This document shows positions 35,391 to 47,095 of a stretch of DNA of 64,000 bases, in pieces. The notes under the pieces were generated by a model that was given only the letters and a program-made list of their open reading frames with translations, ran no database searches and was not told where the DNA came from. Made by a program: the position numbers and the translations under genes. Source of the DNA: Hyphomicrobiales bacterium (GTDB taxonomy: Bacteria > Pseudomonadota > Alphaproteobacteria > Rhizobiales > NORP267); NCBI GenBank assembly GCA_021775875.1, contig JAJFHA010000011.1, forward strand, positions 262,178 through 326,177, written 5' to 3'. Every line of letters begins with the position of its first letter. The stretch's first letter is position 1.

Positions 35391-38300
35391 CTAATGAAAG
35401 CGGATGCTGGAATCATCAATATAGCAGGTATTGTGATCGCTGATGCGGATGGTATCGGTACCGGCAAAAATCACGATATCGAGGATGCTGGGATTAACAG
35501 TATTGCCATTTATTGAGGAATTGACCGTAAAATCGCCGTAGATGCCCAAACTGTTGCCTTGGCCGCTTTCGAGCCTTAGCTCACTTTTGCAATCGAGTCC
35601 GCTTCCCGTATCCCACATAATATCGACAATACGATCAACGTTTGACGGCGCAAAAAAATAGGTGTGCGCACTAAGGTGAGGGCCACACCCTCTCTCCACA
35701 TTATCGTTGTTGCGGCAGGTTAGATAATTTCCGGTTGCGCCCGATGGGCCCGTTTGACCTGTCTGGCCGGGTGGTGAAGTGGGCGGCGTAGTGGAAACAG
35801 GTGGCGATGTGGTTGGCGTTTGTACCCCACCACCGGTCACGAGGATTTTGGGTTGCCACAGCGGATCCGTCTGTTCCGAAGAATGGAATACAAATTTGTA
35901 GCGCCCCGACCCTTCGGTGGCCCCGACAATCACAAGCCCGTAATTTGGCATTTGCCCACTTTGCCAGGCGCGGACCAAATCTGAAATATTAAACAGGTAT
36001 GTTGCCGAAGAGGAATTGATCATCCGGACAGCCCATGGGCGGCTGGCGCTGAAAGTAGGTTGATTGGACCAGCTTATGGTCCCGGCCGCTGCGTTTTGTT
36101 CCATCTGTCCTGAATGATAGGTGCCGTTACCTTCCTGCCATGGTGATGTAACCGCATAGACCCTGGCTTCAACATCTCCTTCGCCGCTACCTCCGGCGGT
36201 GGTGAGGGCCAGTTCGACACGGGCGTTCGGGCTTAAGGGTCCGCCGAGGTTAGTATGGTCGAAACGGATATATATCCGACGCCGGGTATCCGCGACACCG
36301 GAAGAATTCGAGGCAATGGTCATATTCTTGACCGCACCCCAATTGGCATTGTTCCAGTTCAGATAGGTATATTCATACACATCGACGTCTTCGAGGTTGG
36401 TCTGCGCGGCGGAGAAAACGATGAATTGTGAGCTTGTAGGCGTGGTAACTGACGCGCCGCCTGGCACCTGTTGCTGGGTGCCGCCTGCGGCATTGCTGTT
36501 CGGCAATGACGTCTGGCCGCTGCTGCCAGATGTGCCTCCAGTACCCGCGCCGGTCGAAAAAACTTCGTTGGCGTATGGACCACCACAATTTTGTGCAGGG
36601 TTGCCAGAGCACTGCATGGTGCATGCATTCGATGGCCCTGCAGCGTCAAATCTGCCGGACCCGCAAAAACACCATCTGCCATATTGAACGCCCGCATACA
36701 GAGCGCCATTGCCGGCGCAGAAGGCAACGCATTTTTCCTGTGTCATCCTGGGATCATCCGGAATCATGTAGTCATTCAGAACGCGTCCTCTCAAACCTCT
36801 TGGCGCGATATCTCTATTTTCTGCAAAACAACCCAGTGACGTGCCGCCCGGCATTGAAGTCTGGCCGCTGCTGCCAGCTGCGCCTCCAGATGTTGGCGGG
36901 TTCTCAAACCTGAAATCATCGGCATTGATATGCCCCCAGCCACCTGAAGATTGGTCGACAAGACGTATTTGTCCGCGTCGGCCTGCCCACGGGGTGAGGT
37001 CCCATGTGACACGCCGCATGGTCTCAGTATTTTGTCCCGTTACCGAAATCACACTTTGTCCGCCAACAAGAAGCTCAACCCTTTCCTGGGCAGAGTTGCC
37101 GCCACCAACCAAGAAATTCACGGAGCCGGTGGGAATCGTGAAAACGTTGGTTGTCATCGTTCCCTTGGGCCCATCTCCCTGAACGTTACCCGGGGTTTCG
37201 GTCGTCCGGCCCTGATACATTTCGTAGGTGCCAATCCAGTAATTTCCGGCGTGGCGGGAAGGCTGGCCCCGACGTCGTGCGGTTGGGTTATCGCCAAATG
37301 TTGGCTGATTGTTGAACGCCGTGCCTGTGGTCACCCAGCCATTGATATTGCCAGTTTCAAAATTCCAGGTGATGTTTCCACCTGTAGAGCCACCAGTACC
37401 AGCGCCGGTACCCGTTCCTGGTCCGGAGCCACCAGTGCCCGTGCCACCAGTTCCGGCACCACCAGTGCCCGTGCCGCAGCGAGCCATAATTCCGGTATAT
37501 TCCGGGCTATTGAGAAAATGCTGGATCATGGCGTCCCGCGTCAGGTTACGGTTAAGCCTTCTGATCCAATGAGAATGACCCCGTGGTTCGGGTTCCCGGC
37601 CGAGAATGCTTTGATACGCGTCGCGGACAAAATCGATATTGTTCTTTCCAAAACCGGTATATTCACGTGACATGAAAAACTTGGATATTACCCATCCCCG
37701 GGACTTGCCAGAGCTTAGTTGTCCAATCCAATTATTCAGCCCGGCAGGTTCTGGTTGCCGGTCCAGGATCGATTGATACAGCGATGCGACAAAGGCCGGG
37801 TCAGGCGCGCACGGTCTACCATGGGCGTCGCTCAAATTCCCAGTGGCTATTGCACCTCCTGGAACATTGCCCGGGGCAGTGCCAGGTACGCCAACGCCGC
37901 CACCCGTTGCACTACCTGCTGCTCCGCCCAAGACCACTGAAACGTCGTCCAGAGCGATCCCACATCCACGGTTTGGCCCGGTACTTTCAAATATCAGATT
38001 GGTCTGTGTCCTGTTGGCGATGAAACTCCAACCCGCTTGCCGCCACCCCATTTGTCCACGGCTTCGCCCTTGAGTGTTGAAATTAAAGGTCGCGCTCTGA
38101 TTTCCGGCTCTTACGCGCATTTCTTTGGCGGGGTTGTCGCAAGATGGGTTGCCAGCCATGAAGAAACTCAACTGGTATCGGCTACCGGCAATAGTATTGA
38201 ATGATTGCTGGATGGCGCCGCTGCCATAGGTCCCGGCCATATCGACGCTGCGATTACCTTCAATTTGCTGCCAATAACCTTGCACAACATCAATATTTTC

Positions 38301-38552
38301 GCGGACAATTGTCCAGTTGGTGAGACCGATCGTAATGTTGTTGCCGACAGCGCCTTGTTCAAAGCCGCCATTAAGGATCAGGTTGCTGCCCGAACCACCG
38401 CTCTGAATATAGTTCCACGTTCCATTGTCACGCAGAATGACTGGTTTGCCATTATTGTCAGTGCCGCGAATATCGGCCAACAGAGGCGTTGCAAAAACGA
38501 AAAAGATAGCGGCGGGAATGCTTGCCAATTTACCCAGGAAAGAAATATTCAT
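35391..38552 (-). CDS. Large secreted mosaic protein with DUF642, DUF4214 pair, WSC and DNRLRE domains
   Basis: A 1053-residue exported protein, with a signal peptide at 1-26 (cleavage near LLADI). Domains in order: a small WNY-type module (27-50), a DUF642-like carbohydrate-binding domain (57-208), two DUF4214 repeats (about 250-300 and 305-355), a GTG-rich linker (360-392), a beta-sandwich domain similar to the C-terminal module of GH32-like enzymes (393-550), a Cys-rich WSC domain (572-667), a DNRLRE beta-sandwich (706-907), a PT-rich linker (908-935) and an unrecognised C-terminal domain with five cysteines (941-1053). No catalytic domain is recognised; adhesion or glycan binding at the surface is inferred. 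An FNR-type site lies about 70 bases upstream. Confidence 0.82.
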   Translation of the reverse strand: MNISFLGKLASIPAAIFFVFATPLLADIRGTDNNGKPVILRDNGTWNYIQSGGSGSNLILNGGFEQGAVGNNITIGLTNWTIVRENIDVVQGYWQQIEGNRSVDMAGTYGSGAIQQSFNTIAGSRYQLSFFMAGNPSCDNPAKEMRVRAGNQSATFNFNTQGRSRGQMGWRQAGWSFIANRTQTNLIFESTGPNRGCGIALDDVSVVLGGAAGSATGGGVGVPGTAPGNVPGGAIATGNLSDAHGRPCAPDPAFVASLYQSILDRQPEPAGLNNWIGQLSSGKSRGWVISKFFMSREYTGFGKNNIDFVRDAYQSILGREPEPRGHSHWIRRLNRNLTRDAMIQHFLNSPEYTGIMARCGTGTGGAGTGGTGTGGSGPGTGTGAGTGGSTGGNITWNFETGNINGWVTTGTAFNNQPTFGDNPTARRRGQPSRHAGNYWIGTYEMYQGRTTETPGNVQGDGPKGTMTTNVFTIPTGSVNFLVGGGNSAQERVELLVGGQSVISVTGQNTETMRRVTWDLTPWAGRRGQIRLVDQSSGGWGHINADDFRFENPPTSGGAAGSSGQTSMPGGTSLGCFAENRDIAPRGLRGRVLNDYMIPDDPRMTQEKCVAFCAGNGALYAGVQYGRWCFCGSGRFDAAGPSNACTMQCSGNPAQNCGGPYANEVFSTGAGTGGTSGSSGQTSLPNSNAAGGTQQQVPGGASVTTPTSSQFIVFSAAQTNLEDVDVYEYTYLNWNNANWGAVKNMTIASNSSGVADTRRRIYIRFDHTNLGGPLSPNARVELALTTAGGSGEGDVEARVYAVTSPWQEGNGTYHSGQMEQNAAAGTISWSNQPTFSASRPWAVRMINSSSATYLFNISDLVRAWQSGQMPNYGLVIVGATEGSGRYKFVFHSSEQTDPLWQPKILVTGGGVQTPTTSPPVSTTPPTSPPGQTGQTGPSGATGNYLTCRNNDNVERGCGPHLSAHTYFFAPSNVDRIVDIMWDTGSGLDCKSELRLESGQGNSLGIYGDFTVNSSINGNTVNPSILDIVIFAGTDTIRISDHNTCYIDDSSIRFH
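37377..37475 (-). repeat. Gly-Thr-Gly linker repeat inside the mosaic protein gene
   Basis: Codons 360-392 of the mosaic protein form an irregular short repeat of GTGG and GTG units in a 99-base stretch. Such tracts act as flexible linkers and can change length by slippage. Here it separates the DUF4214 pair from the following beta-sandwich. Confidence 0.7.
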
Positions 38553-38615: not shown

Positions 38616-38629
38616 TTGATGGAAATCAA
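38616..38629. promoter_or_regulatory. Perfect FNR/FixK-type palindrome upstream of the mosaic protein gene
   Basis: TTGAT-GGAA-ATCAA matches the FNR/Anr/FixK/NnrR consensus exactly and has an extra pairing C and G outside. Its centre is 70 bases upstream of the mosaic-protein ATG at 38552. If the activator is at the classical -41.5 position, transcription would start near 38581, giving a 5' leader of about 29 bases. It overlaps the last codons of the upstream ligase gene. Confidence 0.75.
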
Positions 38630-39999
38630 GTTGTAGGATAAATCTCGGTGAGATTGGTTTTATGCGCACTGCGCGGCAATTTGTTTGGCGGAATCCAGTC
38701 AATCGCAGCGCCAATACGTAATTGTTGACGTAAATGATCAATAATCCGGTTGGCCAGATCATCCAGTTCGCCGGTGCCGATTTTGTCGCCATGTTCGATC
38801 ATCAAGTTCACAGGTGAAGAAATTTTCGGACCGGGCGCTTCCAATATAATCCGGAACGCCCCGGTAATGTCCGGCAGGAATTTGAATAATTCGTTCTGAA
38901 TCGCGGCCGGGTACACATTGACCCCTTTCACGATCAACATGTCGTCAGCGCGGCCAATAATCGAAAACCGCAATCCCGGTGTGCCACTCGGGCAGGGGGA
39001 GGTTATCACCCGAGCCACATCACCCATGGCATAACGCATGAATGGGCCACCCTGCCAATTCAGAAATGTCCAGACCATTTCGCCTTGTGATCCGTCTTCC
39101 AGCGAGATCGGGTCTTTCGTAACAGGGTCCACCAATTCAAGAATGCAATGGTCTGGCGAAATGAAATACATACCGCTGAATTGTTCAGCAGGCTCGTCGC
39201 GCGATATGCCGTGAAAAGCGTGGCCGCCGCCGGTATGATCAAAAATCCGTGCGCCGCCAAATCCGTCCGCCAAAGCAACCCGTACCGACGGGTCGCCGCC
39301 GCCCGGTTCGCCGGCGCAGAAGAAGGTTTTGATGCCAAGTGCCGCTGCCGGCTCGCCGGTATGTTTGTGGCATTGTTCTATCAGATGCAGCCCGAAGGAA
39401 GGCGTCGCTATCAACGCGCTGGCTTTGGTCAACGCGATGAAATCCAGTACCCGTTTGGTGCCGCCTTCAACGCCGACCGGGACGCAGGCCGCCCCCATAT
39501 GCATGATGCCCTGACTAAGCGGCAGGCCACCGGTGAACATGCTCAGGGACAAAGCCTGAATGATAGTGTCGCCGGGGCGCATACCAGCGCGCCAGTATTT
39601 GCGGGCATGCATCTCGTTGACGATATCCACGTCATTTTGTGTGGCCGCATAAAGTGTCGGTATACCTGTGGTGCCGGAGGTGGCGTTGATGCGAACAACC
39701 TGGTCGCGCGGGGCGCAATTGAGGAGCGCCAGCGGGTCGCCATGTTCTGCCAACCCGCGCTCTTGAGCCAGACGGTGTTCGTCTTTGTTCATCAAAGGAA
39801 TACGTTGAAAATCCTGCCAGCTTTTGATGTCATCCGGGGACGCATCAATGGCTGCGAATTTCTCTCTGTAGAATTGAGAATTTTTGAAATTGTATTTCAG
39901 TTGTGGTTCAAGCCGTCGCCATTGCAAGGCACGTATCTCATCAAACCCAAGTGTCTCAACTGGCGGGTTCCAGAAATTTTGAGAGAGAGGCGGGGTCAT
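38626..39999 (-). CDS. PaaK-like phenylacetate-CoA ligase family protein
   Basis: A 457-residue adenylate-forming ligase of the PaaK-type group. Motifs are NATSGTTGIPTLYAAT (P-loop), a substrate-region FCAGEPGGG, a DHTGGGHAFHG block, MVWTFLNWQGGPFMRYAMGDV, GRADDMLIVKGVNVYP, and a C-terminal RSAHKTNL near the position of the usual catalytic lysine. It is expected to convert an aryl or alkyl carboxylate into its CoA thioester. It begins one base after the VOC gene stop and is the last gene of the five-gene operon. Confidence 0.9.
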   Translation of the reverse strand: MTPPLSQNFWNPPVETLGFDEIRALQWRRLEPQLKYNFKNSQFYREKFAAIDASPDDIKSWQDFQRIPLMNKDEHRLAQERGLAEHGDPLALLNCAPRDQVVRINATSGTTGIPTLYAATQNDVDIVNEMHARKYWRAGMRPGDTIIQALSLSMFTGGLPLSQGIMHMGAACVPVGVEGGTKRVLDFIALTKASALIATPSFGLHLIEQCHKHTGEPAAALGIKTFFCAGEPGGGDPSVRVALADGFGGARIFDHTGGGHAFHGISRDEPAEQFSGMYFISPDHCILELVDPVTKDPISLEDGSQGEMVWTFLNWQGGPFMRYAMGDVARVITSPCPSGTPGLRFSIIGRADDMLIVKGVNVYPAAIQNELFKFLPDITGAFRIILEAPGPKISSPVNLMIEHGDKIGTGELDDLANRIIDHLRQQLRIGAAIDWIPPNKLPRSAHKTNLTEIYPTT

Positions 40000-40416
40000 T
40001 TATTCAGTTGAATGGCTGTCAGGTTGGCAAACTTCAATCAACACATTGCCGGTGGTTTCAGGTTTGAAAAACGCGACCTGGCCATGAGCGCCACCGCGCG
40101 GAAATCCGGCCATGGTTTCTATTCCAGCCGCTTCTATTTTTGAAATGGCTTCGGACACCTCTTCAACCCGCAGCGAGATATGATTGACGCCGCTTTTCTC
40201 GCCCATAATTTCTTTCGCAAACCCGTCGTTAGAGCCGGTATATTGCAACAATTCGATTGTGATGTTCGCGGTTTCAAATTCGGCGATTTTCAAACCCATA
40301 TCCGGCATTTCCTTGGTCGTGCTGGGGCCATCTCCCAACAAACCGGAAAACATTTTGATAGAGGCTTCAAGGTCGTCAACGATAATACCGATATGGTCGA
40401 TATGGGTTTTGGTCAT
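40000..40416 (-). CDS. VOC-family protein (methylmalonyl-CoA epimerase-like)
   Basis: A 138-residue vicinal-oxygen-chelate protein. THIDHIGIIVDDLEASI opens it, and GVNHISLRVEEVSEAI begins the second half. Candidate metal ligands are H6 (HIDHIG), the Glu in ITIELLQY, the His in NHISL and the Glu in VLIEVCQP, a pattern like methylmalonyl-CoA epimerase or glyoxalase. An epimerase acting on a CoA thioester would fit the adjoining ligase. The ATG overlaps the hyuB stop (ATGA) and its own stop abuts the ligase start. Confidence 0.85.
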   Translation of the reverse strand: MTKTHIDHIGIIVDDLEASIKMFSGLLGDGPSTTKEMPDMGLKIAEFETANITIELLQYTGSNDGFAKEIMGEKSGVNHISLRVEEVSEAISKIEAAGIETMAGFPRGGAHGQVAFFKPETTGNVLIEVCQPDSHSTE

Positions 40417-42167
40417 GGGCTGAGGTCTCTCAATTTTGTTGTGGCATCTATATCCACGGCGAAGGTAACAGGATCGATGGCAACACCATAATTGATCCGC
40501 GCTTGCTTCGGCGAAATCAATTCTGCGCGCACGTCTTTCGCCACCAGCTCTGGTGCGCGTTCAAACGGGTTGCCAAAGCCACCGCCACCACCAGCGCGTT
40601 GGCGGTAAATAGAACCTGTTGGAATATCCCGGACCACTTCTTTGGTTTGGGGTTGGCAAATCGTGCCATCTGGATATTCGATTGCCAGCTCATTGCCGCT
40701 GCCATTCTTGCCGCCAAACAGGCCGAATGCGTGCGCGCCATCTTCCAGCCCGTCGCCGAAAGCGATCCCGGTAATGTCTTCTCCCTGGATAATAAATTCG
40801 CATTCGGTGCCATAGCCACCGCGCCATTTTCCGATGCCTGCGGAACCGCCAAGAAATTCATGCTTCAGCAAAAGATGCGGGTCCTGGATTTCAAACATTT
40901 CATAATCCTGATCCTGAAGCCCGCCAGCGCAATTTATCAGACCGATATGGTCAAATCCGTCGGCATTCTGTGTGGCACCAGAACCGCCCTTCAGGGCCAG
41001 AAACAGGATGTCTACGTAGTGCCGCATTTCGTGGCGCGGATCTTTCCCTACAATCACGAAATTCAGCGACCGGTTCCACCCGGCGCTGACCATGCCGGGC
41101 AGGGCATCGGCAAAGGCTCTAAAAATAGCATCAGATGTTGGCCCGGTAATTGAGTTGCCGAACGTTGTTGCAGCGGGATAGGCGGCGTTCAGAAATGACC
41201 CCACCGGGTTGATGATTTTCAACGGCCGGTGCAGGCCGTCATTATGGGGTATATCCGGATTGATAAGCATCAGGAATGTGAGCATCACGGCGGACGCGGT
41301 GGCTGCGAAGGGGGCGTTCACAAAACCGGGTGTTTGCGGCGATGATCCGGTGAAATCGAAGGTAACTTCGTCACCTCGTATCGTCACTGCGAGGTTGATC
41401 AGCATTTCAGAACCATCCCGCACGCCGTCATAATAGGCGGTGCTTTGGCCCTTATAGATGCCATCGGGAATGGCTTCGATTTCCTTGCGGATTATGCGCT
41501 CAGTGGACGTGAATAAATGGCCCACATGGCGCAACAAAATATCGGTTCCATAACGCTCAAACAGGGCTTTGACACCCCGTTCACCAACCACACAGCCGCC
41601 GATTTGTGCTTTGATATCTTCCTGCACAACATCGTAGCGCACATTGGCAAATATCAAGTCCCAAACGTCGCGTCGGCGTTTGCCTTTTTCATAAATCTTG
41701 ACGGCCGGTATCCGCAATGCTTCCTGCCAAACTTCGCGAGCTTCCGGGTTGTAGCCGCCAGCAACAGCGCCACCGATATCTGCCTGATGGCCCTTGCAGG
41801 CAGACCATGCAATCAGTTCGTCTTCCCAGAAAATCGGCTTGAAAATTGCCACATCGGCATTCTGGTTGCCGTGGGAAAAAACATCATTATGGATGATCAC
41901 ATCGCCGTCGGCGATATCGTCACCGAAATAATCGATAATGTGCTCGCAGACCGGCTGCAGGGCGAAAGCGAGCACCGGGATATATTCAGTCTGCTCCAGC
42001 ATCCGCCCTTTGGCGTCGTAGAGCCCTGTTACAAAATCACGGGCTTCATTCAGGATCGGCGAACGGGTGGTGCGCAGCAGCGTCAGCCCCATCTCTTCGG
42101 TGATCGACTTGAAGCGGCGCTGTAATACAGAGACCAGGACCGGATCAATTTTCTGCTCGGTCGTCAT
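40413..42167 (-). CDS. Hydantoinase B/oxoprolinase-family subunit
   Basis: A 584-residue HyuB-type subunit. The N-terminus (DPVLVSVLQRRFKSITEEMG) and the metal-site region (HNDVFSHGNQNADVA, ACKGHQADIGG) are characteristic, as is the C-terminal RQRAGGGGGFGNPFERAPE. With a HyuA partner this family performs ATP-dependent hydrolysis of hydantoins or 5-oxoproline, or carboxylation of ketones as in acetone and acetophenone carboxylases. ATG 42167 overlaps the hyuA stop. Which activity applies cannot be told from the motifs alone. Confidence 0.92.
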   Translation of the reverse strand: MTTEQKIDPVLVSVLQRRFKSITEEMGLTLLRTTRSPILNEARDFVTGLYDAKGRMLEQTEYIPVLAFALQPVCEHIIDYFGDDIADGDVIIHNDVFSHGNQNADVAIFKPIFWEDELIAWSACKGHQADIGGAVAGGYNPEAREVWQEALRIPAVKIYEKGKRRRDVWDLIFANVRYDVVQEDIKAQIGGCVVGERGVKALFERYGTDILLRHVGHLFTSTERIIRKEIEAIPDGIYKGQSTAYYDGVRDGSEMLINLAVTIRGDEVTFDFTGSSPQTPGFVNAPFAATASAVMLTFLMLINPDIPHNDGLHRPLKIINPVGSFLNAAYPAATTFGNSITGPTSDAIFRAFADALPGMVSAGWNRSLNFVIVGKDPRHEMRHYVDILFLALKGGSGATQNADGFDHIGLINCAGGLQDQDYEMFEIQDPHLLLKHEFLGGSAGIGKWRGGYGTECEFIIQGEDITGIAFGDGLEDGAHAFGLFGGKNGSGNELAIEYPDGTICQPQTKEVVRDIPTGSIYRQRAGGGGGFGNPFERAPELVAKDVRAELISPKQARINYGVAIDPVTFAVDIDATTKLRDLSP

Positions 42168-44245
42168 GCCTGCACTGCCGTCATTTCAAAGCTGCCGTAG
42201 CCATCGCAAAACAGGGAATAGTCAGTAGGCACAATGATCGTCGTATTGACCTGTTCGATCACCGCCGGACCTGAAATTATATTGCCGTGGCGCAACTGAT
42301 CACCGTCATAGACATTGACGTCGGCAAAGCAATTTTCCGAGATTAAGAAGATTGAACGCTTGCCTTTCAGGGCTGCGCCGGCATCCGGTCCGGCCATTTT
42401 TTCCATGATCGTTGGCGGCTTGTTGGTGGTCCCGGTCGCCGTCAATCGCAGATTGACCAGTTCGACAATCGTGCCATCACTTTCAAGATCATATCCGTAA
42501 AGCCGGTTATGGGCTTTGTGTAGCGCTGTCGAGATGGCAGCAAAATCAGGACCGGTAAGCAGGTTTTCACCAATTTCGACGGCAACCTCGTGATATTGGC
42601 CGAAATATCGAAGATCGAGGGTATATTTGAAATTGCGCTGTGCGGCGGGAATGCCTTCCGATTGTAATGTCGTGTTGGCCTGCGCGCACATGTCTTCTAT
42701 AGCGGCATGGAACCGAACTGGATCAAGCGTTTGGGGCGTCAATTGAGTATGATAGCTACGCACATAATCGTGTTTGAAATCTGACCACAACATCCCGGCG
42801 GCGCAGAAAATCGAAGATTCGCGCGGCACCAGAATACGGGTCATATCCAGTTCTTCAGCAATCATGGCAGCGTGAACCGGACCGGCACCGCCCGCACAAA
42901 CCAGCGGAATATCGCGCGGGTCAAAGCCCTGCTGGACTGTGATTTCGCGGATACTGGACGCCATGTTGACATTCATGATCCGGTACATGCCAACGGCTGC
43001 TTCGGTAACAGAAAGGCCAAGCGGTTTGGCAATATGGTCTTCAATAGCTCTCGCAGCGGATTTCTTGTCAAGTTTGATCTCGCCGCCAGCGAAAAACCCT
43101 TCATTCAGATAGCCAAGCACGAGGTTGGCATCCGAGCAGGTTGGTTTTTCGCCTCCAAGGCCATAGCAGACCGGGCCGGGCCGTGCACCGGCGCTCATTG
43201 GTCCCATCCGCAACAATCCACCTTCGTCGATCCAGCCAATCGATCCGCCACCAGCTCCGATCGTGTTGATTTCAAGTGTAGGCAGAGCGAGCGCGTGTTT
43301 GTCGATCCGCGCTTCCGTCGTCATGTTGGGCGCGCCATCGCGCACCAATGCCGCGTCCAGACTGGTGCCGCCCATATCCACCGTGATGAAACTTTTGTCC
43401 CCGCGAAGGGCGGTATAGGCCAGGCCTGCAACCGGTGCGGCAGCGGGTCCGGAAAGCAGTGTGGTGGCCGCAAGACGCATCGCCGTTTCTGGTGCCGTGA
43501 CACCGCCGTTAGATTGCATGACCAAAAGCATATTTTGATATTGTGCATTCGCCAGTCGTTTGATCAGGCTGGTGAGGTATCTGCCGAGAATGGGGCCAAC
43601 CGCTGCATTCAACACTGTTGTGCTGATCCGGTCGTAAAACCGCACCTGGCTAAGAATATCGTGAGACGGTGAAAGGTAAGCGCTCGGCATGGCCTTGGCC
43701 ACATAAGCAGCCGCTTGTTCTTCATTGATCTGATTGGCGTAGGAATGCATGAAGCAGATCGCGATTGCCTCCACCCCTTCAGCGCGGAACTGGGCGAGGG
43801 CATCGTCTATATCGTTTGCATCAAGTGCGACGAGGATATTTCCGTCTGCCGTAACACGCTCCTTCACCGGTCGCCGCAACCATCGTGGCACTAATGGCTC
43901 AGCAGCAATCGCCTTATTGTCATACGTCTCTTCGCGAATGCCACGACGCATCTCAAGGGCGTCGCGAAACCCTGCGGTGGTCAGCAACCCAGTACGCGCG
44001 ATATTGCCAGTCAGAACCGCGTTTGTGGTGACGGTTGTGCCGTGGACAATGATCTCGACGTTGGCAAGAAACGATTCTAGATCGAGCGCCCTGTCAGACG
44101 CCATTCTGCCAAGGCCTTCAAGCACGGCGATGGAAGGATCTTGCGGTGTGGAAAGCACTTTGTAGACAGCGGTTTCACCGCCGCCATCCAACAACAAAAA
44201 GTCGGTAAATGTACCACCGACATCAATTCCGATTTTGTATTTCAT
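42164..44245 (-). CDS. Hydantoinase A/oxoprolinase-family subunit
   Basis: A 693-residue ASKHA-fold ATPase subunit. It opens with the phosphate loop GIDVGGTFTDFLLLDGG, followed by VHGTTVTTNAVL, the second phosphate region ITVDMGGTSLDAAL, an SNGGVTAPETAMRLAATTLLSGPAA block (about 240-265), and CAGGAGPVHAA. The HyuA family phosphorylates an enol or amide substrate before hydrolysis or carboxylation. It lies 26 bases after the 85-residue small protein and overlaps hyuB by 4 bases, so the order is small protein, hyuA, hyuB, VOC, PaaK-like. Confidence 0.92.
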   Translation of the reverse strand: MKYKIGIDVGGTFTDFLLLDGGGETAVYKVLSTPQDPSIAVLEGLGRMASDRALDLESFLANVEIIVHGTTVTTNAVLTGNIARTGLLTTAGFRDALEMRRGIREETYDNKAIAAEPLVPRWLRRPVKERVTADGNILVALDANDIDDALAQFRAEGVEAIAICFMHSYANQINEEQAAAYVAKAMPSAYLSPSHDILSQVRFYDRISTTVLNAAVGPILGRYLTSLIKRLANAQYQNMLLVMQSNGGVTAPETAMRLAATTLLSGPAAAPVAGLAYTALRGDKSFITVDMGGTSLDAALVRDGAPNMTTEARIDKHALALPTLEINTIGAGGGSIGWIDEGGLLRMGPMSAGARPGPVCYGLGGEKPTCSDANLVLGYLNEGFFAGGEIKLDKKSAARAIEDHIAKPLGLSVTEAAVGMYRIMNVNMASSIREITVQQGFDPRDIPLVCAGGAGPVHAAMIAEELDMTRILVPRESSIFCAAGMLWSDFKHDYVRSYHTQLTPQTLDPVRFHAAIEDMCAQANTTLQSEGIPAAQRNFKYTLDLRYFGQYHEVAVEIGENLLTGPDFAAISTALHKAHNRLYGYDLESDGTIVELVNLRLTATGTTNKPPTIMEKMAGPDAGAALKGKRSIFLISENCFADVNVYDGDQLRHGNIISGPAVIEQVNTTIIVPTDYSLFCDGYGSFEMTAVQA

Positions 44246-44271
44246 ACTGAACGAGAGTTCTTCGCTCGGTG

Positions 44272-44529
44272 TCAGCGCATACTGGACAGGTTTGCGATCA
44301 GCACATCATTCTTGTTGCGAATTGAATCAGCAATTTTCTGGGCTACGTTTTTGTCGCGGTATTGCAAGCAGGCATCAACAGCGCGATGTTGACCTTCAAG
44401 CAACGCGCGTACAACAGTTGTTTCAACAATGACGCGTACTTTCTCAGCTTGCGCTGCCGTGAGAGGCTTCACGAATACTTCGTTGATTTCTTTTGTTGCC
44501 TTATCAGTAATAGTTTGCAGTTTTTCCAT
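44272..44529 (-). CDS. Small hypothetical protein leading the Hyu/PaaK operon
   Basis: An 85-residue soluble, helical, charged protein (MEKLQTITDKATKEINEV, then TAAQAEKVRVIVETTVVRALLEGQ and NVAQKIADSIRNKNDVLI). It has no signal peptide, one cysteine and no recognised motif. ATG 44529 is supported by GAGGACGGGAA just upstream; the open frame extends to 44628 but lacks such support. Position and spacing (26 bases before hyuA) suggest a small subunit or accessory factor of the Hyu enzyme. This is inference. Confidence 0.65.
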   Translation of the reverse strand: MEKLQTITDKATKEINEVFVKPLTAAQAEKVRVIVETTVVRALLEGQHRAVDACLQYRDKNVAQKIADSIRNKNDVLIANLSSMR

Positions 44530-44752
44530 TTTCCCGTCCTCAGATTTAAAACCAATTGGCACGAAGAGCGCGTTTAGCGCGCCAAAGTCCGCTTGATCAT
44601 CAGGATACACAATATCCTGACCGCACATAGCAGATTTCTGATTTTGTCAACTGATGCGAAATCCCGAAACTACAATCTTGGAAATCAAATCAGCCCGTGC
44701 CATTGTCGCCTTTAGAAATCAAACAGCGGAATTTTTAGCGGAAATGAGTTTT

Positions 44753-45490
44753 ATGAATGTATCCAGCCAGATAAACACAGAATTTAATCCCCCCGACGGC
44801 GTACCGACCAGCAGTGACGATCCGCGAGATTATCTCGCACCGACACCTTATCTGGATAGTGACAATCCAGACGTAATTGCATTTGCTATGGAAGCCACCA
44901 GGGACGCTGTGACCGATGTAGAGAAAGCCGTAAAGCTGTTCTACGCAGTGCGCGATGGCATCCGCTACGACCCGTATGTGACCAGCCGGCAAAAATTCAA
45001 ATATCAGGCTAGCTGGACCTTGTCTCAGGGGCTGGGCTGGTGTGTGCAAAAAGCGATTGTTATGGCAGCCGCAGCGCGGGTAGTCGGTGTTTCGGCGCGG
45101 ATTGGTTACGCGGATGTCCGCAACCATTTAGCCAGCGACCGGTTGTTGGAATTGCTGGGCACAGACGTGTTCGCTTTCCACGGCTGGGTAGAACTTTGGC
45201 TGGAAGACCGCTGGATCAAGGTGACCCCGGTCTTCAACAAGGAATTATGTGAAAAATTCCACGTCAAACCGCAGGAATTTGACGGCTCCGCCGAAGCCTT
45301 GTTCCAGGAACATGATACGCGCGGCAACAAGCATATGGAATATCTGGGTGACCGCGGTTCGTATACAGATTTGCCATTGCAGGAAATGCTTGACGACTTT
45401 GACGAGCGCTATATCGCGTTCGTCAATGACGAAGAAGAAAAAGGCGGCGATTTTCATGCGGAAGCAGAAGCACAGGGTCGCTCATCTTAA
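44753..45490 (+). CDS. Transglutaminase-like superfamily protein
   Basis: A protein of about 245 residues with a transglutaminase core: AVKLFYAVRDGIRYDPY, the catalytic-Cys block GLGWCVQKAIVMAAAARVVGV, the His block FAFHGWVELWLEDRWIKV, and VTPVFN where the third residue is expected. Many bacterial members hydrolyse rather than cross-link amides. No signal peptide is present, so it is cytoplasmic. The frame extends to 44654; starts at 44744 and 44753 are both possible. It is divergent from the Hyu operon and 45 bases before an acyl-CoA synthetase. Confidence 0.8.
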   Translation: MNVSSQINTEFNPPDGVPTSSDDPRDYLAPTPYLDSDNPDVIAFAMEATRDAVTDVEKAVKLFYAVRDGIRYDPYVTSRQKFKYQASWTLSQGLGWCVQKAIVMAAAARVVGVSARIGYADVRNHLASDRLLELLGTDVFAFHGWVELWLEDRWIKVTPVFNKELCEKFHVKPQEFDGSAEALFQEHDTRGNKHMEYLGDRGSYTDLPLQEMLDDFDERYIAFVNDEEEKGGDFHAEAEAQGRSS

Positions 45491-45535
45491 GCGCCGGATC
45501 GAAGCATTAAATAAATAGTATCAGGGGCAGGGACT

Positions 45536-47095
45536 ATGCAACTTACATCGGTCATCAGACGGGCAGCGCAGACAAACCCCAAGGGATTGGCCACGGTGTT
45601 TCAGAGCCGCGATCAAACCTGGCGGCAATTTGTGACGCGCGTTGCAAAACTGGCGGGAGCGTTGCAAAAACTCGGCATGGAGGACGGTGACCGCGTGGCC
45701 ATCCTGTCGCTGAATTCAGATCGTTATATCGAATTTCTCTTCGCTGTAATGTGGGGCGGCGGCGTGATCATGCCGATGAATTTGCGTTGGTCGCCAGCTG
45801 AAAATGCCTATGCGGCTACTGATTCCGGATCAACAATTCTGTTTGTTGATGACACTTTCAAGGACGTGGTTCCGGCTATTACCGGAAAAGCGGAGATTAT
45901 AAAAACGCTGGTCTTTTGCGGTGATGGCGACACGCCCGAAGGCATGTTGAATTACGAGGAAATTCTGGCGGCCGCTGATCCAGCCGAAGATGCGGGGCGG
46001 AGTGGCGAAGACCTTGCCGGTATTTTTTACACCGGCGGCACCACCGGTTTTCCAAAAGGCGTGATGCTCCCCCATCGCGGCATTTACATTAACAGCCTGT
46101 CTAACGCGCAAACTTTCAGCCTCAGCGAGGGTGCGGTTTCCTTGCACGTTGCGCCGATGTTTCATATTGCTGACTTTGCACTGCTGGTAGCGACCTGCTT
46201 TGTTGCCGGCACTCATATCGTGGTCCCGAGCTTCACACCGCAGGCTACGCTGGAAGCGATTGAAACCCACAAACCCACCAATACCCTGCTTGTCCCGGCC
46301 ATGATCCAGATGACGGTTCGTGATCCGGATTTCCATAAATGGGACGTGTCGTCCCTGAAATACATTGTTTATGGAGCCGCACCAATCACAGGCTCTTTGC
46401 TGGCCGAGGCTATGGAAAAATTCTCAAGCGCTGAATTTACACAAGCTTTCGGGCAAACCGAATTGTGCCCTGTCGCTACAATTTTGCCAGCAGAATATCA
46501 CGTCACCGAAGGCCCGAATGCCGGCAAATTGCGATCAGCAGGAAGAGCCATAAGTGTTTGTGAAATCAAGATCGTTGATACCGACGGTAATGAATTGCCT
46601 CAGGGTGAAATTGGTGAAATCGCCGTCAAAGGCCCGATCACCATGCTTGGCTATTGGAACAAGCCGGAAATTACGGCTGAAGCCCTCAAGGACGGCTGGA
46701 TGCATACCGGCGATGGCGGCTATCTGGACGAAGACGGGTTCCTGTTCATCATGGACCGGCTCAAGGACATGATCGTATCTGGTGGCGAAAATGTTTACAC
46801 GGCCGAAGTTGAAAACGCCGTAACCCAGCACCCGGCTGTCATGGCCTGCGCCACCATCGGTATCCCAAGCGAAGAATGGGGCGAGAGCGTCCATTCAATT
46901 GTAATCCTGCATGAAGGCGCCACGGCGAGCGAAGACGATATCAAGAAATTCTGTCACGATTTGATCGCAGGCTATAAATGCCCAAGGACAATCGAATTCC
47001 GCACTGAACCCTTTCCCCTGTCAGCCGCCAACAAAGTGCTGAAAACCGAATTGCGCAAACCATTCTGGGAAGGCCGTGAGCGCAGCGTCAACTAG
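45536..47095 (+). CDS. Acyl-CoA synthetase (AMP-forming)
   Basis: A 519-residue ANL ligase. The P-loop is IFYTGGTTGFPKGVML, with GG in place of the common SG. GQTELCP, MHTGDGGYLDEDGF, MDRLKDMIVSGGENVYTAEVEN, and a C-terminal catalytic Lys in LSAANKVLKTEL follow. A fatty-acid or related carboxylate substrate is likely. A purine-rich GGGGCAGGG precedes ATG 45536. It is co-oriented with the transglutaminase-like gene and divergent from the Hyu operon, which carries its own PaaK-type ligase. Confidence 0.92.
   Translation: MQLTSVIRRAAQTNPKGLATVFQSRDQTWRQFVTRVAKLAGALQKLGMEDGDRVAILSLNSDRYIEFLFAVMWGGGVIMPMNLRWSPAENAYAATDSGSTILFVDDTFKDVVPAITGKAEIIKTLVFCGDGDTPEGMLNYEEILAAADPAEDAGRSGEDLAGIFYTGGTTGFPKGVMLPHRGIYINSLSNAQTFSLSEGAVSLHVAPMFHIADFALLVATCFVAGTHIVVPSFTPQATLEAIETHKPTNTLLVPAMIQMTVRDPDFHKWDVSSLKYIVYGAAPITGSLLAEAMEKFSSAEFTQAFGQTELCPVATILPAEYHVTEGPNAGKLRSAGRAISVCEIKIVDTDGNELPQGEIGEIAVKGPITMLGYWNKPEITAEALKDGWMHTGDGGYLDEDGFLFIMDRLKDMIVSGGENVYTAEVENAVTQHPAVMACATIGIPSEEWGESVHSIVILHEGATASEDDIKKFCHDLIAGYKCPRTIEFRTEPFPLSAANKVLKTELRKPFWEGRERSVN

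Follow-up and report, generated by a model that had tools for sequence, protein, structure and literature searches.

A conserved hyuA-hyuB-voc-paaK cassette with a changed HyuB metal site, a candidate second lactamase module of iaa-type pathways

In a 64,000-nucleotide stretch of a Hyphomicrobiales genome (the window: positions 262178-326177 of contig C3, JAJFHA010000011.1 of assembly GCA_021775875.1), five leftward genes at window positions 38626-44529 encode, in order, a protein of 85 residues, HyuA, HyuB, a VOC protein and a PaaK-like coenzyme A (CoA) ligase. The sequence bears out this arrangement as given in the first-pass annotation, including the junctions, which from the 85-residue gene to the paaK gene are 26 bases, ATGA, ATGA and zero bases. 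The conserved unit is not these five genes but four of them, hyuA-hyuB-voc-paaK. Judging from gene order, protein families, the clade in which HyuA falls, a change in the HyuB metal site, co-occurrence in proteobacteria and mutase and dehydrogenase genes shared with iaa-like operons, we hold it somewhat probable that this cassette is a second ATP-dependent lactamase entry module of an iaa-type pathway, equipped with its own ligase and epimerase-like VOC protein. The association of HyuAB with both a CoA ligase and a VOC protein of epimerase-like kind, already pointed out in the first-pass annotation, is supported and conserved.

To map the cassette we scanned 84,980 species genomes, using an alignment of four PaaK proteins as the query; since the scan relied on two exact peptide patterns, more distant members will have been missed. 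It yielded 62 loci, distributed over Desulfobacteraceae, Desulfobacula, Desulfomonile, Burkholderiales and other beta-, alpha- and deltaproteobacterial metagenome-assembled genomes (MAGs). The order hyuA-hyuB-voc-paaK is intact within 7 kb at 40 of the 62, which is more than chance and marks the four genes as a real unit. Counted singly on the strand of paaK, HyuB was found at 54 loci, VOC at 56 and HyuA at 48, and 47 loci have the three together; where at least 5 kb of contig lies upstream of paaK, all three were present at 41 of 48 loci. At several deltaproteobacterial loci the cassette genes are split or reordered, and in L098, L108, L116 and L122 transporter genes lie between hyuA and voc. 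At 20/62 loci paaK is followed by a short-chain dehydrogenase (SDR) gene, and at 7/62 a TRAP permease gene comes before hyuA. Within the window's own class, a PaaK match at 1e-100 was found in five of 385 genomes, three of them close (the window, G101 and G377), and a HyuA match at the same threshold in 106 of 289. On plasmids, 192 records carry a HyuB relative; the best row listed has 39.7% identity, and the best place in each record stays below 60%.

The beta, metal-binding subunit HyuB (40413-42167, minus strand; 584 residues; Pfam Hydantoinase_B, 4e-143) is 35% identical to CapB, whose metal ligands are D41, H99, D102 and H124, each alanine mutant giving less than 0.015% conversion (PMC8453981). 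In our alignment, from which HyuB rows shorter than 500 residues were dropped, the window protein has D44-Q102-D105-H127 in place of this tetrad; the Q102 codon (41862-41864, minus strand) marks a clade-wide change. Glutamine occupies the His99 site in all 56 HyuB rows with at least 50% identity to the window protein (one of them without the first column, three from iaa-like operons), and in 14 of 14 rows of HyuB2, the beta subunit of the iaa-like operons described below (a few rows are common to the 14 and the 56). Histidine stands at this site in the four HyuB rows below 50% identity (4/4), in 11/11 rows of a third group, HyuB3, in CapB, ApcD, AcxA and N-methylhydantoinase, and in those paralogues of the window's own genome that were aligned (L003 and L004).

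The alpha, ATP-binding subunit HyuA (42164-44245, minus strand; 693 residues; Pfam Hydantoinase_A, 4e-91) carries the ATP motifs DVGGTFTD, DMGGTS and GARPGP, the roles of which we take from PMC8453981. In a tree of 83 HyuA rows it falls in a cassette subclade of 21 rows (SH-aLRT 98), which nests in a 42-row clade (SH-aLRT 100) that also contains a 14-row HyuA2 subclade (100) and seven further rows, mostly from split deltaproteobacterial cassettes; cassette HyuAs and HyuA2s are 49-58% identical. Outside this clade lie CapA, methylhydantoinase, the carboxylase subunits ApcC and AcxB, the HyuA3 rows and 24 sampled HyuAs (L024-L044 and L003-L005; the eight closest rows, L016-L023, were excluded). 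The phylogenetic comparison proposed in the first-pass annotation places HyuA with the iaa-like HyuAs and apart from carboxylase, methylhydantoinase and caprolactamase. The tree was built by a quick method, with several long branches flagged, ApcC and AcxB among them; matches shorter than 1500-1800 bases or 600 residues were dropped beforehand, the HyuAs of G101, G377, G385 and G292 entered via longer loci, and those of G256, G353, G107 and G164 are absent, as is IaaC itself.

Among named families the caprolactamases come nearest, with 680.9 bits for NF050156 and 426.2 bits for NF050157, both far under the NCBIfam cutoffs of 1000. The solved structures nearest to HyuA are, in order, CapAB (6yra), N-methylhydantoinase (7hk5) and the carboxylases. 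CapAB is the closest solved structure by sequence (38% identity of HyuA to CapA), and the ATP motifs, the D/D/H metal residues and the active-site tyrosine are shared with it; in the cassette proteins, however, His99 is replaced by glutamine and the vicinal Cys410-Cys411 pair is absent (N-C). The gene plan resembles that of IaaCE, the predicted 2-oxoindoleacetyl-CoA gamma-lactamase of Aromatoleum aromaticum, in being a two-subunit, ATP-dependent Hyd type: enzymes of this type have alpha and beta genes only, in the order hydAB and with Hyd-like lengths (PMC5214803), and the window has 693- and 584-residue subunits in hydAB order with an ATGA overlap. The cassette differs from IaaCE in its separate subclade, in a PaaK-type ligase and a VOC gene that replace the iaa gene set, and in that no IaaF, IaaGH or IaaL genes lie in the window, an iaa-like operon being found on contig C17 instead.

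The sister subclade belongs to operons that, when full, read GntR, thiolase, CoA ligase, HyuA2, HyuB2, acyl-CoA dehydrogenase, B12 domain, mutase, three molybdenum (Mo) hydroxylase subunits and family III CoA transferase. Not all are complete, the ligase or other members being absent from some. In the iaa pathway of A. aromaticum, IaaB is the ligase, IaaCE the lactamase, IaaF the dehydrogenase, IaaGH the mutase and IaaL the transferase (PMC8360864), and the order of the HyuA2/HyuB2 operon matches the iaa gene letters if, as we infer, the letters follow gene order. IaaC has 707 residues and 37% identity to CapA, and IaaE 564 residues and 36% identity to CapB (PMC8453981, table 1); HyuA2 rows have 701-714 residues and 36-40% identity to CapA, HyuB2 rows 557-564 residues (one 585) and 34-37% identity to CapB. 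Three HyuA3 rows likewise show 36-37% identity to CapA, and this measure by itself would therefore not single out the IaaC type; because the iaaF forward-primer sequence given in PMC8360864 is absent from the 14 loci examined, the assignment rests on size, identity and operon order together. IaaF has a GGG signature where most acyl-CoA dehydrogenases have YEG (PMC8360864). GGG is present in 39 of 40 dehydrogenase rows of the mapped loci, rows that were picked by homology to one GGG dehydrogenase, and the exception (L227, 29% identity) has YEG. L227 is one of five Desulfobacterota loci (with L232, L233, L234 and L236) in which a mutase cluster is accompanied by a third HyuAB pair, its HyuA 35-36% identical to that of the window and its metal site D-H-D-H; Mo hydroxylase genes and a ligase resembling PaaK (27-30%) accompany it in four of the five.

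The window's own genome has its iaa-like operon on contig C17 (L054), with its own HyuAB and without a ligase gene; the best match in the genome to the iaa-like ligase of L059 reaches 42%. Neighbours of this operon include IorA/IorB-like indolepyruvate oxidoreductase genes (TIGR03336 below cutoff, PRK08312 above it), a salicylyl-CoA-hydroxylase-like monooxygenase (below cutoff) and a benzoate-CoA ligase family gene, and indolepyruvate may in this genome enter directly as indoleacetyl-CoA (L054, L239). Upstream lie a gene for an amidase of the hydantoinase/carbamoylase family (TIGR01879, 390.1 bits, cutoff 204) and a cytosine-deaminase-like gene.

We then examined the possible connection between the cassette and iaa genes across genomes. 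HyuB2 at 70% identity or more was found in 23 of the 53 genomes with a paaK locus (three being partial matches), and a mutase at least 53% identical to the C17 mutase in 43. Among betaproteobacteria with the cassette, assigned to that group by record labels, 18 of 21 have iaa genes (HyuB2 at 70% or mutase at 65% identity at least), as against six of 399 genomes in a background draw of Burkholderiales in which the three best candidates per genome were scored; one of the six is the seed genome, hence 5/398 (Fisher p ~3e-24). The genomes of L066, L076, L082, L096, L100, L113, L114, L115 and L124 were left out of the mutase and HyuB2 searches (short records, or beyond a limit of 50 loci). L063 and L119 are represented there by G002 and G101, and the MAGs of L092 and L117 each contribute a second contig, L089 and L118 respectively. 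All nine alphaproteobacterial cassette genomes searched have a mutase at 65% or more, a count that stands without a background draw.

Individual loci tie the two gene sets together physically. In G891 a single operon reads hyuA1-hyuB1-voc-paaK-SDR-dehydrogenase-B12-mutase, and, past one reverse gene, a GntR-thiolase-ligase-hyuA2-hyuB2-Mo hydroxylase-CoA transferase set follows without a dehydrogenase and mutase of its own; the only iaa-type mutase match of this genome at 1e-120 is the one in the cassette operon. In L070 a GGG dehydrogenase and a mutase precede the cassette, in a genome without a HyuB2 match at 70% or above. The cassette of L105 leads on to a thiolase, a GGG dehydrogenase, an SDR and a FadJ-like gene, and the best mutase of that genome does not exceed 41%. 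Outside the cassettes, a VOC homologue (30%) was found in the iaa-like operon of L222 (G894), directly before the dehydrogenase gene. A gene of the octopine-dehydrogenase family paired with a 3-hydroxyacyl-CoA dehydrogenase gene recurs near both cassettes and iaa-like operons (L079, L083, L084, L085, L087, L150, L155).

The VOC protein (40000-40416, minus strand; 138 residues) is a relative of methylmalonyl-CoA epimerase that misses the TIGR03081 cutoff (82.1 bits against 114.95). Its ligand-type residues are shared with that enzyme: at the metal-ligand positions of the VOC fold, H8, E55 and H79 are present in 57/57 cassette rows and E128 in 54/57 (the other three being end gaps), after matches under 300 bases or 60 bits were dropped. 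The position that is the catalytic glutamate in known epimerases holds D or E in 47 of 57 rows and Q, G, A, N or S in ten, and a GFP motif of the family's own at 104-106 is invariant in 58/58 rows, the window included. IaaF accepts one benzylmalonyl-CoA enantiomer, and methylmalonyl-CoA epimerase restarts the reaction (PMC8360864), which makes a dedicated epimerase at this point plausible; it is plausible, judging by sequence, that the VOC protein is an arylmalonyl- or arylsuccinyl-CoA epimerase. The ligase (38626-39999, minus strand; 457 residues) belongs to the acyl-CoA ligases of the PaaK family: AMP-binding_C_2 is above the Pfam cutoff, and AMP-binding slightly under it (28.7 against 29.9). 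Its structure matches are PaaK (2y4o, 185 bits) and 2-hydroxyisobutyryl-CoA synthetase (6hdw, 159 bits); with 207.4 bits against a cutoff of 646.3 for TIGR02155, the phenylacetate-CoA ligase PaaK, it is assigned to the PaaK-like family only. The remaining Pfam families above cutoff in the operon are Hydantoinase_A, Hydant_A_N, Hydant_A_C, Hydantoinase_B and Glyoxalase_4.

From these genes we infer the reactions, their order and the substrate. HyuA would spend ATP on phosphorylating an oxindole-like lactam acid at its lactim oxygen, and hydrolysis by HyuB, with its D-Q-D-H site, would then give an (aminoaryl)dicarboxylic acid. Making the CoA thioester of this ring-opened acid would fall to the PaaK-family ligase, and the VOC enzyme would invert the acidic alpha carbon, after which a B12 mutase of the IaaGH type and a decarboxylating dehydrogenase of the IaaF type may take the epimerised thioester along the arylsuccinyl-CoA mutase/benzylmalonyl-CoA dehydrogenase route; the SDR, hydratase and thiolase genes found beside cassettes elsewhere could complete beta-oxidation. 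Our first guess at the substrate is free 2-oxindole-3-acetate. That the lactam acid would be free and not bound to CoA is itself a guess, made because the canonical four-gene cassette has no Mo hydroxylase or CoA transferase genes.

Several observations weigh against this reading. Genes of the kind just named do lie near some cassettes (Mo hydroxylase in L083, L098, L106, L108, L109 and L116), which weakens the guess of a free acid, and in three of these, L098, L108 and L116 from Desulfobacterales, the Mo hydroxylase gene precedes hyuA, as would suit a substrate whose lactam has still to be formed. The identification of HyuA2/HyuB2 with IaaC/IaaE is indirect: the iaa-like operons share clade and D-Q-D-H site with the cassette, the IaaE and IaaCE sequences themselves lay outside our comparison, and PMC8453981 describes the metal tetrad as conserved across its aligned enzymes, IaaE included, a misfit with glutamine at this site. 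Of the mapped loci, 41 contain HyuB2 or a mutase of the iaa type, and a VOC match other than that of the cassette was found at only one of them (L222). In the class of a Desulfobacteraceae genome a mutase at 52% or more is found in 51 of 85 genomes, and, while all five cassette genomes in that draw have it (p = 0.07), co-occurrence is uninformative where mutases are so common; we use it for betaproteobacteria only. Five of the six iaa-type Burkholderiales genomes of the draw showed no cassette HyuB, so that the cassette is not needed for iaa and the dependence is one-way. G591 has hyuA-hyuB-voc, a GGG dehydrogenase and an SDR gene, with no paaK in the mapped stretch and no mutase match. The window operon stands alone, the iaa-like operon of its genome lying on another contig, and we found no biochemistry for any cassette protein.

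The cassette might instead act in the same pathway in another order: PaaK would take the opening step, the role of IaaB, with an indole-type acid as its substrate; a Mo hydroxylase would make the lactam thioester, HyuAB would open the CoA-bound lactam and the VOC protein would act later. The Mo hydroxylase genes near those six cassettes speak for such an order, as does the missing ligase gene of the C17 operon, and we nevertheless consider it unlikely, since L070 and L105 combine the cassette with GGG dehydrogenase genes and have no Mo hydroxylase gene in the stretch examined. More improbable still is a lactamase whose substrate is some unrelated lactam, imide or hydantoin, in bacteria where iaa genes accompany the cassette only through a broad aromatic catabolism. 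HyuAB families are diverse in substrate, no mutase gene lies beside the window cassette, mutases are common in the Desulfobacteraceae class, and the carbamoylase-family amidase and cytosine-deaminase-like genes on C17 suggest that the genome may handle other cyclic amides; yet the shared operon and single shared mutase of G891 and the betaproteobacterial enrichment argue against it, and none of the 20 neighbour clusters typed by Pfam is an aminotransferase or carbamoylase (other neighbours were left untyped).

The idea of the first-pass annotation, a ketone carboxylase that uses ATP and has a CoA ligase acting after it, we reject as very improbable. It has in its favour a distant homology to ApcC/ApcD and the fact that the Apc operon, too, has a ligase gene (PMC5214803), acetophenone carboxylase and benzoylacetate-CoA ligase likewise combining HyuAB-type subunits and a CoA ligase gene in one operon. 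Against it stand the tree, in which HyuA lies apart from the Apc and Acx proteins, and the lengths, as HyuB has 584 residues and is without the additional sequence found in ApcD (684) and AcxA (776). Moreover, neither a carboxylase-type gamma subunit with its four conserved cysteines nor alpha-prime and epsilon subunits were seen at the cassette, and the carboxylase NCBIfam scores, 345.5 and 122.6 bits, fall far under the cutoffs of 1500.

The small subunit that such a carboxylase was expected to have is not supplied by the 85-residue protein (44272-44529 including the stop, minus strand), which adjoins hyuA and lies outside the conserved cassette. The five-family co-occurrence proposed earlier holds for hyuA-hyuB-voc-paaK and fails for this gene: a homologue is present at one of the 62 cassette loci, that of a sister species in the window's genus (L063), so that of the two genes whose conservation next to hyuAB was in question the VOC gene is conserved and the small gene is not. 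At the mapped loci, copies outside the genus do not stand beside hyuA, and the distant copy in G101 is on a different contig than the G101 cassette. The protein matches 10 of 101 genomes of the order, its own included, and is present in seven of 57 genomes (53 with a paaK locus and four others), three of the seven having a paaK locus. Cysteines number 0-2 across ten sequences of the family. The predicted model has three helices (mean pLDDT 80.7, from a two-sequence alignment); a Foldseek search with it gave no structural match at E <= 0.001, no solved relative was found by sequence, and no Pfam family exceeded its cutoff, the best weak hit being DUF7801 (15.8 bits against 33.2). Given its presence at 1/62 loci, its positions away from hyuA and the lack of a Foldseek match, we rejected it as a Hyu subunit and treat it as a neighbour of HyuAB. 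An upstream ATG would extend it to 118 residues; a methionine is present at the annotated start in six of ten aligned rows, its own included. The family in the window and in L008-L013 shows a strong C-terminal motif, LLEGQHRAVDA ... KIA..IR..ND.LI.NL.S.R.

Two genes on the plus strand, at 44654-47095, are divergent from the operon: the one is transglutaminase-like, the other encodes an acyl-CoA ligase, and both are retained in the sister species L063 (89% and 91%); transglutaminase homologues also adjoin cassettes in L084 (46%) and L108 (42%). On the operon's own strand, and downstream of it (35391-38552), lies the gene for a 1053-residue protein with DUF642, two DUF4214, WSC and CBM96 domains and, judged by eye, a likely signal peptide.

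The first-pass annotation knew of no described pathway with this exact set of genes, and none appeared in the titles and abstract openings of open-access papers, a search that left most subscription papers, including the 2012 and 2016 iaa papers, outside it. HyuAB genes are abundant in the genomes searched, and their names say little about substrate. The clade described here would tie one group of them to the catabolism of auxin-type aromatic lactams, and the D-Q-D-H signature together with the fixed set of partners offers a one-residue annotation marker for that group. With the lactamase entry module that we favour comes the proposal of an epimerase dedicated to this pathway, in which the dehydrogenase IaaF acts stereospecifically. 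A bolder picture, which we offer tentatively as a possibility and no more firmly than that, is that of an undescribed and widespread route by which oxindole-type lactam acids in their free form would be degraded, among them 2-oxindole-3-acetate, which arises when plant auxin is broken down; it would be common to Desulfobacterota and to beta- and alphaproteobacteria: opening at the D-Q-D-H site, CoA activation by the PaaK-type ligase, epimerisation by the VOC protein and entry at the B12 mutase. Such a route may be a sink for breakdown products of plant auxin.

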